The translations under genes and the position numbers were made by a program. A DNA stretch of 64,000 bases from Oceanihabitans sediminis (GTDB lineage: Bacteria > Bacteroidota > Bacteroidia > Flavobacteriales > Flavobacteriaceae), in NCBI RefSeq assembly GCF_003337215.1, contig NZ_QPIG01000001.1, forward strand, positions 620,001 to 684,000, written 5' to 3'. Of this stretch, positions 41,371-45,297 are shown one piece after another. The first letter of the stretch is position 1, and each line of letters opens with the position of its first letter. The notes under the pieces are model-generated. The model was not told where the DNA came from. It did not search any database and saw only the letters and a program-made list of their open reading frames with translations.

Positions 41371-41508
41371 ATATTTCTTTTATCTATAAGGTTTTTCTGT
41401 GAAGAATAACCTGCTTAAAATAGGCTGTAAAATTACGGAAAATACTACACAATTGTAACAAAGTTTTTGTTTCTTCTACTTATAAGTATAACTAAAGGGA
41501 AACTTAAG

Positions 41509-41718
41509 ATGAGAAATATGAATTATACCTGTCCTAAATGTGCAAATACAACCTACGAATTAGATCAAATACAAGCAACGGGAGGACTTTTTACAAAGTT
41601 GTTTAATATTCAAAATAAGAAGTTTACCTCGGTAACATGTAAAAAATGTACCTATACGGAGTTTTTTAAGACTAAAAGTAGCGCAATAAGTAATATCTTT
41701 GATTTTTTTACAAACTAA
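41509..41718 (+). CDS. Small zinc-ribbon protein
   Basis: A 69-residue protein from the ATG at 41509 (MRNMNYTCPKCANTTYE). Two Cys pairs, CPKC and CKKC, about 40 residues apart form a zinc ribbon. The middle part, TGGLFTKLFNIQNKKFTSVTC, is typical of short zinc-ribbon proteins thought to bind nucleic acid. A longer frame starts at a TTG 14 codons upstream and is unlikely. The stop shares a base with the folB start (TAATG), so the two are coupled. Confidence 0.82.
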   Translation: MRNMNYTCPKCANTTYELDQIQATGGLFTKLFNIQNKKFTSVTCKKCTYTEFFKTKSSAISNIFDFFTN

Positions 41719-42089
41719 TGGGAATAATAAAAGTTGAAAATATTCGTGTTTTTGCAAATCATGGTTGCTTAACCGAAGAGACGAAAATTGGTAGTGATTA
41801 TCGTGTAGATTTAAAAGTGAAAGCCGACTTACAGAAAAGTGCAAATACAGATGATTTAAAAGATACTGTAGATTATGTATTTTTAAATAAGGTGGTTAGA
41901 GAGGAAATGGCAAAACCTTCTAGATTACTAGAAACAGTTGCAAAACGTATTTTATCTCGTATCTTTGCAGAAGACAAACTTATTACTATAGCTACTGTTG
42001 CAGTAAGTAAAATTAACCCTCCAATAGGTGGAGATGTGGAGATGGTAACTATAGAAATGACAGAGAAAAGAAAAATTGCATCTAAGTAG
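41718..42089 (+). CDS. folB: Dihydroneopterin aldolase
   Basis: A 123-residue folate-synthesis enzyme that forms 6-hydroxymethyl-dihydropterin. FANHGCLTEETKIGSDYRVDL holds the conserved substrate-binding Glu, and the C-terminal AVSKINPPIGGDVEMVTIEM holds the catalytic Lys. DTVDYVFLNKVVREEM and SRLLETVAKRIL are also typical. It follows a zinc-ribbon gene with a TAATG junction and precedes tRNA-Cys by 70 bp. Confidence 0.95.
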   Translation: MGIIKVENIRVFANHGCLTEETKIGSDYRVDLKVKADLQKSANTDDLKDTVDYVFLNKVVREEMAKPSRLLETVAKRILSRIFAEDKLITIATVAVSKINPPIGGDVEMVTIEMTEKRKIASK

Positions 42090-42109
42090 GGTTAAAATAG
42101 AATTATTTT

Positions 42110-42117
42110 TATATTTG
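42110..42117 (+). promoter_or_regulatory. -7 promoter element (TATATTTG) for tRNA-Cys
   Basis: A perfect TAnnTTTG, 42 bp before the 5' end of the mature tRNA-Cys. Confidence 0.5.
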
Positions 42118-42159
42118 CCCTCTCGTTAAATAAAGCGATTTTTTTAATTGAGAATATAA

Positions 42160-42230
42160 GGTGTCGTGGCCGAGTGGCTAGGCAGTGGTCTGCAACACCA
42201 TCTACAGCGGTTCGAATCCGCTCGACACCT
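42160..42230 (+). tRNA. tRNA-Cys (anticodon GCA)
   Basis: A 71-nt cloverleaf. Acceptor arms are GGTGTCG / CGACACC, discriminator T; D-arm GCC...GGC; anticodon stem GTGGT / ACCAT with loop CTGCAAC (anticodon GCA at 42191-42193); T-arm AGCGG / CCGCT with loop TTCGAAT. CCA is not encoded. It is followed at once by a terminator and then by a repeated array of its own 3' half. Confidence 0.96.
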
Positions 42231-42660
42231 CAAAAACCTTCAAGTAAATCTTGGAGGTTTTTTTATTTCTAATTTTTATGAAAAATTATGATTAAATATA
42301 TAACACCATCTACAGCGGTTTAAATCTATTCGACACCTCAAAAACCTTCAAGTAAACCTTGGAGGTTTTTTTATTTCTAATTTTTATGAAAAATTATGAT
42401 TAAATATATAACACCATCTACAGCGGTTTAAATCTATTCGACACCTCAAAACCTTCAAGTAAACCTTGGAGGTTTTTTTATTTCTAATTTTTATGAAAAA
42501 TTATGATTAAATATATAACACTATCTACAGCGGTTTAAATCTACTCGAAACCTCAAAAACCATATAGAAAACTAAGATACTTTTATGTTTAATTTTTATG
42601 AAAGATTATAATTAAATGTATCACCAACTACAGCGGTTCGAATCTACTAGAAACAACAAA
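42194..42660 (+). repeat. Tandem array of tRNA-Cys 3' half plus terminator (about 108-bp unit)
   Basis: The unit begins AACACCATCTACAGCGG (inside the tRNA, from the 3' side of the anticodon loop) and runs through the tRNA 3' end, the terminator hairpin and an AT spacer ending in AAATATAT. Unit starts are 42194 (the real tRNA), 42302, 42410, 42517 and about 42621, so periods are 108, 108, 107 and about 104. Copies 1 and 2 are near-identical to each other. Copies 3 and 4 are more diverged. None of copies 1-4 has the 5' half of the tRNA, so none can fold as a tRNA. Confidence 0.93.
42232..42264 (+). terminator. Terminator of tRNA-Cys, repeated in the array
   Basis: Stem AAACCTTCAAG / CTTGGAGGTTT (one G-T pair) followed by T7. 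Near-identical copies recur about 108 and 215 bp further on, as part of the tandem units. Confidence 0.8.
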
Positions 42661-42700
42661 AAAATTGGAATATTTTTTTATCTCTTGTACAGAAAATTGA

Positions 42701-42729
42701 AAAGCCTTCAAAAGTTACTCGAAGGCTTT
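42701..42729 (-). terminator. Terminator of the GspG-like gene
   Basis: Stem AAAGCCTTC / GAAGGCTTT with an 11-base loop. On the minus strand it is followed by TTCAATTTTCTG. It lies 36 bp beyond the stop of the GspG-like gene. Confidence 0.6.
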
Positions 42730-42764
42730 GATGTTTATAGTAGTTATGAACTTAAAAATTCTAG

Positions 42765-43235
42765 TTATTTTTCCGATTGAATATCATCTTCAGTTCCAAA
42801 TATTCCATCAGAACCGGCAGAAATAATTAAAAATCCTTTACCATTTTTGGTAATCTTAAATTTATATTCTCGATTCCAAGCATCTTTTTTCCAATCTTGT
42901 CTTATAGGACTATTTCCTATTAATTGGTTAATATCTTGAGGATATTGGCCAAATTTTTCATTCCAACTTTCCATTCTTTTACTCATTTCAGATATTTCAA
43001 TTTTAGTTTTATCAGGAAAAACAGATGTTCTTTGATAAGTAAAAAATAGAACTGTACTTAACATGAATACAATAAAAATAGTTAGAAATATTAATACACT
43101 TGGTTGTAAAAAATACTTTTGAATTGGTCTTTTAATTCCGTCTTCTTTTACTCTTTTATTTATTCGCTTATGATGTTTAAAATCTTCACGAATTAGACCA
43201 AATTCAGCTAAAAAAGAAAGTATTATTTCTAACAT
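42765..43235 (-). CDS. GspG-like C-terminal domain protein with one membrane helix
   Basis: A 156-residue protein from the ATG at 43233-43235. A longer frame starting at TTG (43298) would overlap the upstream gene by 55 bp. A basic N-terminal part precedes one membrane helix (VLIFLTIFIVFMLSTVLFF, near residues 47-66). The C-terminal third reads MESWNEKFGQYPQDINQLI ... DAWNREYKFKI ... FLIISAGSDGIFGTEDDI. The last segment matches the conserved calcium-binding end of type II secretion major pseudopilins (GspG). There is no prepilin peptidase site, so it is not a pseudopilin. It follows the 44.4-kb barrel gene by 8 bp. Confidence 0.72.
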   Translation of the reverse strand: MLEIILSFLAEFGLIREDFKHHKRINKRVKEDGIKRPIQKYFLQPSVLIFLTIFIVFMLSTVLFFTYQRTSVFPDKTKIEISEMSKRMESWNEKFGQYPQDINQLIGNSPIRQDWKKDAWNREYKFKITKNGKGFLIISAGSDGIFGTEDDIQSEK

Positions 43236-43243
43236 TGATTTGG

Positions 43244-44431
43244 TTAAAAGATGGTATAACCAAATATAACAGACATAGTTTTGTACTCTGAGTTCCAAAA
43301 TACATAGTCACTTAAAATATCTCTTTTAGTGTTATATCTAAACTCTATGCTATACTTGTCGTTGTATTTATAACCTATACCAACTGCCATATTATTTCCT
43401 TCATTTATATCTATATCTTCATATTTTTCATAAGTAACTGAAGAATTCATACTAAGATCATAGATAAAAGATCCATTGATAAATATTTTAGAATTATCAT
43501 TAAGAAAGAAATAATGTCTTAATCCTATAGGGAATTCAATAGACTTATAATCAACTTTAGAAGATGTAATTTTTAATTCCTTTTCAACTTTATAGTCTTG
43601 ATAAGTAGGCTCGAAAATAATAGCCCATTTATTTTTGTTAAAAGGCAAAATTACTTCTGCTTCAAGACCAATTCTAAATCCAGATTTATTACCAAAATCA
43701 GCATCCCTAGAATTTGTTTTAGAATTATCTACATAAAGTGATGAGCTTTTAAAACCAGGACGAATATTTAAATTAAATAAATCTTGTTTTACTTTAGTTT
43801 CATAATTTGTAAAATCTTGATTATTACATTCGTTATAATCTATAAAAAAATCTATTAGTCTGTTCTTGCTGTATTTAAGCTTTTCTACTTTAGAAACTTT
43901 AATGCTTTCACATTTTAAATCATTCCAAAGTTGTTGTTTATATCTAGTGTTTTCTCCTATTTGATTATCATCTGTTAGATATTTTTTATACACCAATTGT
44001 TCTATATCAGAGTGATCCTTATTATAAAAATATCTAATAATATTCCCTTCCACAAAAGAATATAAGCTTGCTTTTCCTTCAACTAAAACTTTTAAAAAAA
44101 GTTCTTCTTCATTAAAAGAAACATATTTATCATTACTTAATTCGGAAACAATACTACTGGATCTGTCTATATTAACGGTTTGTTTTGTGTATTTGAAAAT
44201 ATTATAAACCCCAAACTCTTTAACAGTGTTAAGTGTAGCAATGTTTTTATCTGAATTTTCGGTTAATTTATATTCAAATGAAGTTGGATTATCTTTCCAA
44301 TCAACATTTTTAATTAAGCAATCCACTTTATTCCCTGAATTGTCAATATAATAGCCATTTTCATAAATAATTTGTGAATAGCAATTTGCACTTAAAATTA
44401 CGATTAAAATAAATAGTAGATTTTTTTTCAT
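43244..44431 (-). CDS. Outer-membrane beta-barrel protein of unknown function
   Basis: A 395-residue exported protein (signal MKKNLLFILIVILSANCYSQ). The N-terminal half opens with GYYIDNSGNKVDCLIKNVDWKDNPTSFEYKL, a beta-rich domain seen in many flavobacterial barrel proteins. The C-terminal half (from about 215) is a barrel of alternating strands with FEPTYQDYKV and IEFPIGLRHYFFLNDN, ending in a terminal Phe (MSVIFGYTIF). It is the first of a two-gene unit with the GspG-like gene, just past the tRNA-Cys array. Confidence 0.78.
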   Translation of the reverse strand: MKKNLLFILIVILSANCYSQIIYENGYYIDNSGNKVDCLIKNVDWKDNPTSFEYKLTENSDKNIATLNTVKEFGVYNIFKYTKQTVNIDRSSSIVSELSNDKYVSFNEEELFLKVLVEGKASLYSFVEGNIIRYFYNKDHSDIEQLVYKKYLTDDNQIGENTRYKQQLWNDLKCESIKVSKVEKLKYSKNRLIDFFIDYNECNNQDFTNYETKVKQDLFNLNIRPGFKSSSLYVDNSKTNSRDADFGNKSGFRIGLEAEVILPFNKNKWAIIFEPTYQDYKVEKELKITSSKVDYKSIEFPIGLRHYFFLNDNSKIFINGSFIYDLSMNSSVTYEKYEDIDINEGNNMAVGIGYKYNDKYSIEFRYNTKRDILSDYVFWNSEYKTMSVIFGYTIF

Positions 44432-44616: not shown

Positions 44617-45297
44617 TTAGTTTATAGGGTTAAGTTGTTCAATTTTTTCTTTAATTAATTCTTTTTCTTTTGGGAAGAAGCCTTGGACTAAAAGTAAAAT
44701 TCCGAAACCTAAAATAACAAGTGCTATGATTTTTTTGGTTTTAAAAATTCGTCTAGGAGTAAGTTTACTTTTAAGTGTTTTTGCTGCAAATATTTTTAAT
44801 AAATCTACTAAAAAATAAACTAATAAAATGGTTCCTAAAAATACTTGAAGCTCGTAGGTATTTGCTGTTAGAGAATTTCCAATTACAATAAAACCAAGCC
44901 ATCCTAATAAAACGCCAATATTTATAAAGTTTAGCAAAAAACCTTTTACAAATAGTTTTCCGTAATTTTTTTTGAATTCCACTTTATGATATTCTCTTAC
45001 AATTTCTCTAAAAGATTTAGATGTTTTTATAAAGGAAATGATACCGTAAACTGTTAGTAATACCCCACCAAATATGAGAAAACTAGGGTCGTCTTTCATT
45101 TTGTCTAGTAGCTTACTAGTACTATAAAAAGCAACTATAATGAAGATAATATCTGCTAAAATTACTCCAAAATCAAAAATTAAAGCACTTCTAACTCCTT
45201 TTGTAGCACTAGTTTCTAGTAATACAAAAAAAACAGGTCCTATGGTGAAGGATAATATAATACCGAATGGAATAGCTGTTAGAATAGCATCTAGCAT
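44617..45297 (-). CDS. LysE/RhtB family translocator
   Basis: A 226-residue membrane protein with six predicted helices. The start AILTAIPFGIILSFTIGPVFFVLLETSATKGVRSALIFDFGVILAD is the LysE/RhtB signature (G-P-x-x-x-x-x-x-x-x-x-x-G-x-R-x-x-x-x-x-x-G). It probably exports amino acids or related metabolites. A Lys-rich stretch TLKSKLTPRRIFKTKKI precedes the last helix. It appears monocistronic, about 40 bp after the GIN-domain gene. Confidence 0.9.
   Translation of the reverse strand: MLDAILTAIPFGIILSFTIGPVFFVLLETSATKGVRSALIFDFGVILADIIFIIVAFYSTSKLLDKMKDDPSFLIFGGVLLTVYGIISFIKTSKSFREIVREYHKVEFKKNYGKLFVKGFLLNFINIGVLLGWLGFIVIGNSLTANTYELQVFLGTILLVYFLVDLLKIFAAKTLKSKLTPRRIFKTKKIIALVILGFGILLLVQGFFPKEKELIKEKIEQLNPIN

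Follow-up and report, generated by a model that had tools for sequence, protein, structure and literature searches.

Why should the 3' half of a transfer RNA gene be found several times over, in tandem, behind the intact gene? The question arises in a 64,000-nucleotide stretch of the Oceanihabitans sediminis genome (hereafter, "the window"), in which ARAGORN finds a single tRNA, tRNA-Cys(gca). The parent unit of the repeat is 108 bp long (42194-42301) and comprises the 3' part of this tRNA, a terminator, and an AT-rich palindrome; four tandem copies follow it (Table 1). The units start at 42194 (the third anticodon base, within the gene), 42302, 42410, 42517, and approximately 42620. Tandem Repeats Finder describes 42194-42662 as an array with a period of 108, 4.4 copies, 90% matches, and a score of 693; the second-best tandem array of the window scores only 78.

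The start-to-start spacings are 108, 108, 107, and 103 bp, and an initial annotation made from the sequence had thus been accurate to within a base (108, 108, 107, and about 104). Its account of the relatedness of the copies also holds. Copies 1 and 2 are 99% alike, copies 3 and 4 are more diverged, and identity to the tRNA unit drops with distance from the gene (93, 92, 77, and 69% for copies 1-4; the last unit was trimmed at a set length and some flanking DNA may be in it, so its identity is biased low). The T-arm of copies 1 and 2 differs from that of the tRNA, as had been noted, by G:C to A:T transitions only: cgaatccgc has become taaatctat, which amounts to five of them. The motif ttcgaat is retained in copy 4, the oldest copy, and an AT-palindrome spacer separates successive copies. 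A terminator hairpin had been ascribed to every unit; terminator prediction bears this out for copies 1 and 2 but not for copies 3 and 4. The tandem array of the tRNA-Cys 3' half is confirmed as a real feature of the window.

Table 1. Coordinates of the tRNA-Cys array and its neighbours in the window
Feature	Position	Strand	Basis
folB (dihydroneopterin aldolase), upstream gene	41718..42089	+	PF02152
Intact tRNA-Cys(GCA) gene from which the array derives	42160..42231	+	ARAGORN; RF00005 61.3 bits
3' part of tRNA-Cys that recurs in the copies	42194-42231	+	inside the complete gene
Terminator of the tRNA gene (42232-42262), followed by the AT-palindrome spacer (TAATTTTTATGAAAAATTA)	42232..42301	+	sequence, folding, terminator prediction
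Copy 1: anticodon-to-3'-end segment, T-arm transitions, terminator 42340-42370, spacer; 93% to tRNA unit	42302..42409	+	
Copy 2: near-duplicate of copy 1 (99%), with terminator 42448-42476	42410..42516	+	
Copy 3: 77% to tRNA unit; terminator prediction negative	42517..42619	+	
Copy 4: most diverged; tRNA-derived part only; terminator prediction negative	42620..42662	+	
Predicted terminator of the convergent gene 42765-43298	42701..42729	-	terminator prediction
T2SSG-like gene, first after the array, convergent	42765-43298	-	T2SSG match, E 1.7e-6
LysE-family gene, 2461 bp from the tRNA-Cys start	44617..45297	-	PF01810

The order of the locus is folB, tRNA-Cys, array, and a convergent lysE; folB, recognised by eye, also lies upstream of tRNA-Cys in the relatives examined. 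Two minus-strand genes (42765-44431) separate the array from the lysE-family gene in the window; one is T2SSG-like and the other is weakly outer-membrane-barrel-like, its match falling below the profile cut-off. The interval from the end of lysE to the start of tRNA-Cys is 109-303 bp in 40 of 55 array-less genera and 594-1708 bp in 4, with lysE absent from the fetched stretch in the other 11. At array loci in which lysE was found, this distance is 241-3685 bp, and it is greater there because of the array itself and, often, because of extra genes.

The array is not a one-off; it recurs at tRNA-Cys in scattered families of Bacteroidota. The initial annotation had named the lack of a related array in any relative, together with a lack of transcription, as an outcome that would count against it, and such arrays are found across this phylum; it had foreseen neither this recurrence nor the T-loop palindromes described below. 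All seven genomes of the genus, our own included, match a 601-base query, some over the terminator only, and six of them carry copies behind tRNA-Cys (the window's genome, G001, G002, G004, G005, and G006), that of G004 being a single decayed copy. In the seventh, G003, the contig begins inside a unit. A strict pattern gave 11 matches in 397 genomes of the family, namely eight tRNA-Cys arrays and three unrelated matched strings. The same pattern scores zero for the decayed copies in G004, G019, G044, and G097, so the family count is at least 12 of 397. A search of 120 genomes for the tRNA-Cys motif matched 59, one per genus, and downstream copies were found in 4 of those 59 (local score of at least 15; weaker scores of 10-13 in others are close to what chance would give and were not counted). 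Among 148 genomes from the family to which Parachryseolinea belongs, 3 match, the query centre included.

Further, a scan of a species-level genome collection returned 26 stretches, of which 23, from 22 assemblies, carry 3'-half copies. The remaining three comprise two Chitinophaga loci with two complete tRNA-Cys genes (L142 and L145) and one, L155, that meets the contig edge in its second copy. The 3'-half arrays belong to Gelidibacter, Lacinutrix, Oceanihabitans, Winogradskyella, Robertkochia, Salinimicrobium, Salegentibacter, Hanstruepera, Psychroserpens, Parachryseolinea, Chryseolinea, Marinoscillum, and several MAGs; all titles are Bacteroidota, but the search pattern is a Bacteroidota-type tRNA-Cys that does not fairly cover other phyla. 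In total, we observed the same architecture at tRNA-Cys in 29 genomes (30 rows, as G006 is in two pieces), drawn from Flavobacteriaceae, Cytophagales, and other Bacteroidota, and amounting to a minority of each family. An exact-pattern search of viral contigs yielded no arrays; only one viral contig matched the tRNA-Cys 3' pattern, and what it carries is a complete tRNA-Cys.

How did the array come about? In our best reading, which we regard as probable, it is a satellite confined to a single locus, born of a duplication that began in the anticodon loop, enlarged by unequal recombination or slippage, and then left to decay. The first step would have been an old tandem duplication of the segment from the tRNA-Cys anticodon to its 3' end, along with the terminator and spacer; the necessary break, in or beside the anticodon loop, could have come from a template switch at stalled replication or from site-specific integration. 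Next, to judge from repeat patterns seen mostly in relatives, unequal recombination or slippage would have lengthened and shortened the array and made its units more alike, at times by a dimer at a step, as the edge units decayed. In a third step, which can be followed in the sequences themselves, the copies decay behind an upstream gene that remains whole: substitutions, or palindromes set into the T-loop, disrupt their T-arms, and the older copies lose the terminator.

The second of these steps has left the clearest traces. G005 has a dimeric higher-order repeat in which units of the same parity are 79-99% alike and those of opposite parity 65-73%. Among the copies of Winogradskyella ouciana, higher-order partners are 88 and 75% alike, compared to 62-63% for neighbours, and G249 has a weak pattern of this type; such higher-order units are absent from the window's own short array. 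In 8 of the 11 arrays compared, it is the distal unit that has diverged most from the parent; the exceptions are G005, G002, and W. ouciana. Unequal exchange or slippage leaves such higher-order units and distal decay. The stepwise growth and decay proposed in the initial annotation are thus borne out by the identity gradient of the window, the dimeric repeats of relatives, and the divergence of distal units. Later expansion by exchange between units is better supported than is the seed event.

As to that event, the spacers of three arrays (Parachryseolinea L140, L149, and L151) contain an inverted copy of the anticodon arm that was matched in 0 of 200 shuffles each. Such copies look like products of template switching. 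L137 and L154 show them weakly (2 of 200 shuffles each), and they were not seen in the other 21 of the 26 arrays tested, which include that of the window; by title, none of the positives is from Flavobacteriaceae.

The manner of decay was surveyed in 68 copies from 28 arrays (from the 30 rows, we dropped G006a, which was too short, and G019, which was without a chain). The acceptor 8-mer is intact in 35 copies, the T-loop 10-mer in 15, and the 15-mer of the T-arm in 7; because the ACAGCGGTTC core was the means of recognising copies, its own conservation is partly an effect of the search. In point-change counts from 21 genomes, with insertions left out, the acceptor 3' strand has changed less than have the terminator and spacer (22 of 210 versus 243 of 1149 sites). 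Such a low rate would not be predicted by plain neutral decay. Selection for point changes in the T-arm was considered and rejected, as 40 of 189 sites are changed in the T-loop and 3' stem and 265 of 1359 in the acceptor, terminator, and spacer (p 0.31). T-arm point changes are not enriched, and only the palindromes stay notable. In 13 of the 29 genomes, at least one copy has a palindrome, in some cases imperfect, that replaces part of the T-loop (as read by eye). Most are of the form TCCCGA..TCGGGA and lie at the junction GGTTC/CGC. Palindromes of this type occur elsewhere in some genomes, too (12 of the 30 searched have a match); when preceded by GTTC, 4 of 6 matches in 20 genomes sit in tRNA-Cys arrays.

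The foremost rival to the satellite reading invokes tyrosine recombinases. Under it, serial integration in the anticodon loop left 3' fragments with their terminators as scars; the elements later disappeared, and the fragments multiplied. Islander lists the anticodon loop among the crossover subsites of integrases (PMC4383910), and the copies begin at the anticodon, both in the window and in the young copies of G200, G225, and G272. The T-loop, another such subsite (PMC4383910), is where copies start at tRNA-Met in the window's genome, at tRNA-Pro in Gelidibacter, and at tyrT of E. coli. Since the unit start coincides with a known crossover subsite, the seed may have been an integration. Further, the window's genome has a truncated Arm-DNA-bind_5 domain (the N-terminus of an integrase, E 4.2e-6) between two copies of a tRNA-Asn 3' end and terminator. 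That locus is likely an integration scar.

At tRNA-Cys itself, however, the machinery for such events is not in evidence. No PF00589 integrase lies near the array in the seven genomes of the genus (the G006 contigs break off within the array, leaving its middle out of view). In 72 further genomes, the nearest Arm-DNA-bind_5 on the tRNA-Cys contig is about 69 kb away among the matches listed, the distances having been compared by eye for the 64 genomes with a located tRNA-Cys. Nor did we detect an integrase, by eye, among the extra ORFs at array loci; those of the window alone were scanned with profiles. If the extra genes were cargo, a tRNA fragment might mark their far end, but none with a score of at least 12 occurs beyond the array in the 12 array loci with extra genes (the window and 11 others), and none occurs in the full set of 18 loci that also takes in 2 array loci without extra genes and 4 array-less ones. 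Viral contigs have no array, as stated above, and higher-order repeats require exchange between units whatever the seed. We therefore think it unlikely, albeit worth keeping in view, that serial integration produced the arrays. Genomic islands found by Islander (PMC4383910) resemble the array in leaving a tRNA 3' fragment downstream of an intact gene, in their case from the anticodon-loop subsite; unlike them, the array has units of about 100 bp in several copies, each originally with a terminator, and neither an island nor an integrase was found with it.

The initial annotation had suggested looking behind the other tRNA genes of the genome. We compared 33 distinct tRNA 3' ends of the window's genome (30 of 37 tRNA places) with up to 1.5 kb of downstream sequence. 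Single extra copies occur: tRNA-Met has one extra 3' end with terminator, and tRNA-Asn has one extra. More than one extra copy, as in an array, is found at tRNA-Cys only. tRNA-Val is repeated as a whole gene, and a short tRNA-Gly match was discarded, as it lies in the T-arm of a neighbouring tRNA-Leu. In Gelidibacter G249 (33 compared, 30 of 34 places), there is a Cys array, one extra copy at Pro, a repeat of the 3' flank alone at Arg(tcg), and a whole-gene repeat at Lys. The copying process is thus not unique to Cys, which is its main seat in these two genomes. Whole-gene tandem duplications (Cys in the Chitinophaga loci, Val in the window's genome, and Lys in Gelidibacter) are likewise tandem at a tRNA locus, but they retain the 5' half, which the array copies examined do not.

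A second alternative holds that the array has a selected function, be it an rttR-like RNA, an insulator of several terminators between tRNA-Cys and its convergent neighbour, or a decoy target for an integrase or a DNA-binding protein. Several features are in keeping with selection: spacers are alike across genera (see below), terminators were detected in 34 of the 68 copies against a background of 3.8%, the palindrome recurs at the same T-loop junction, and E. coli rttR, a stable RNA that is released from tyrT with tRNA processing, offers a precedent. Yet the array is missing from most sampled genera, and older copies have lost the terminator and the T-stem.

In the window, plus-strand terminators are predicted at 42232-42262, 42340-42370, and 42448-42476, compared to 0.2 for the shuffled region on both strands together. 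The first of these is the tRNA gene's own, and copies 3 and 4 have none, so the array contributes two extra; the claim of at least three successive terminators holds in number as a prediction, with only two of them added by the array. When folded, a unit shows two hairpins, that of the terminator and an AT hairpin. None of 200 shuffles folds as well as the parent unit does as DNA (z -5.0); as RNA, copy 1 is equalled or bettered by 2 of 200, and its T-stem fails to form. The strength of these hairpins counts in favour of the satellite reading. No plus-strand promoter-like site was found at the array with a scan model that is not one of Bacteroidota promoters. The short RNAs with a tRNA 3' half that had been envisaged are accordingly unsupported: copies 1-3 each lie behind a predicted terminator, the scan gave no promoter-like site, and copy 1 forms no T-stem.

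Comparison with known RNAs points the same way. RtT (RF00391) has no match in window positions 41400-43500 up to E 1, and none at gathering score in eight array relatives, with four matches in the E. coli control. At gathering score, the only Rfam match in the array region is the tRNA, as is likewise true of the eight relatives; two sub-threshold sRNA matches (E 0.08 and 0.48) were set aside. The tyrT/tyrV locus of E. coli is similar in having tandem repeats directly 3' of a tRNA gene, each with a tRNA 3' end; on re-measurement, the tyrT repeats have a period of 178 bp and number 3.1, and every copy includes the final 19 nt of tRNA-Tyr. They differ in the tRNA concerned and in that copies start in the T-loop (AATCC...), whereas the window array starts in the anticodon. 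The idea that the E. coli repeats, too, have an interrupted T-arm was dropped, as 109 of 1000 shuffles did equally well or better. E. coli tyrT/rttR is the nearest known relative, sharing the principle but neither sequence nor unit boundary, and the arrays are not RtT members. A function for the array finds no support in this analysis, and we consider selection for one improbable. The array is probably passive, providing at most redundant terminators between tRNA-Cys and the convergent gene.

Spacer likeness between genera is in keeping with the satellite reading, but in scattered genera it could also mean selection or horizontal spread. One may imagine an old, gene-less element at Bacteroidota tRNA-Cys, with a unit of about 100 bp (tRNA 3' half, often a palindrome-filled T-loop, terminator, and AT-palindrome), that has recurrently been kept or re-acquired at this one site, whether because a recombinase moved it in trans or because it was selected as a decoy, RNA or DNA. 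A first test left the T-runs of terminators in, relied on simple shuffles, and treated two Winogradskyella as separate genera; in it, 55 of 174 between-genus pairs of array spacers exceeded the 99.9th shuffled percentile, versus 24 of 1485 array-less controls. Omitting T-runs and using dinucleotide shuffles, we obtained 29 of 193 pairs (controls, 27 of 1485), or 6 of 91 when each genus contributed a single spacer. The stricter result is weaker, though still above control; the inference is weakened with it, and the odds of a gene-less element are lowered; we accord this idea little credence. On a LysE tree of 57 rows, 15 of them with arrays (four array loci had no gene suitable for the tree), the array label requires 7 changes, compared to 13.5 when shuffled; arrays are clustered yet scattered, and starred branches force at least three changes. 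The window's genus, G044, and Hanstruepera form a group in which all have arrays (support 94, not starred). The tree and the spacers together suggest that an old array has often been lost or that it has spread between lineages.

Finally, an artefact of assembly is very improbable: repeats are error-prone, and the truncated contigs of G006 and G003 noted above show where assemblies falter, but the window copies differ from one another within a contig of 1.28 Mb, and homologous arrays are present in many unrelated assemblies, two of which are single-contig genomes (G002 and G225). Near-identical units could be under-counted in assembly.

Our literature searches found no paper describing such tRNA-Cys arrays. 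They show that short bacterial satellites arise repeatedly on the downstream side of a tRNA gene, in several families of one phylum, and they provide a natural series, from one decayed copy to seven, with dimers and palindrome-broken T-loops, for studying how arrays are born, spread, and die. The series gives the E. coli tyrT repeats a comparative frame. For island finders, it means that a tRNA 3' fragment downstream of a tRNA does not, by itself, prove an integration scar. The importance of the arrays would be greater if the similar spacers or palindromic T-loops prove functional.

Several observations were made at other tRNA genes. The tRNA-Met copy of the window's genome, which begins in the T-loop, is part of a single repeat of the 3' end, flank, and terminator about 170 bp on (L039 1576-1790; C16 near 109305). 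In Gelidibacter G249, the tRNA-Pro 3' end with CCA, its terminator, and its spacer are repeated at about 163 bp (L178; C2 near 950000), and a gcataagcga-like motif, spotted by eye, is common to this repeat and the tRNA-Met spacer. A 72-bp 3'-flank repeat follows tRNA-Arg(tcg) in G249, in about four copies with no tRNA sequence in the match (L188; C1 near 329400). The tRNA-Asn 3' end and terminator of the window's genome are copied about 340 bp on (L020; C11 ~520500-520941, minus strand). Five integrase genes in that genome lie about 0.5-3 kb from other tRNAs (Ser, Arg(acg), Met, Leu, and a Thr cluster), with none near tRNA-Cys. Behind tRNA-Pro in Salegentibacter (L164), the sequence ggctgaaggttc-palindrome-ctaccac resembles, by eye, a tRNA 3' copy interrupted in its T-loop.
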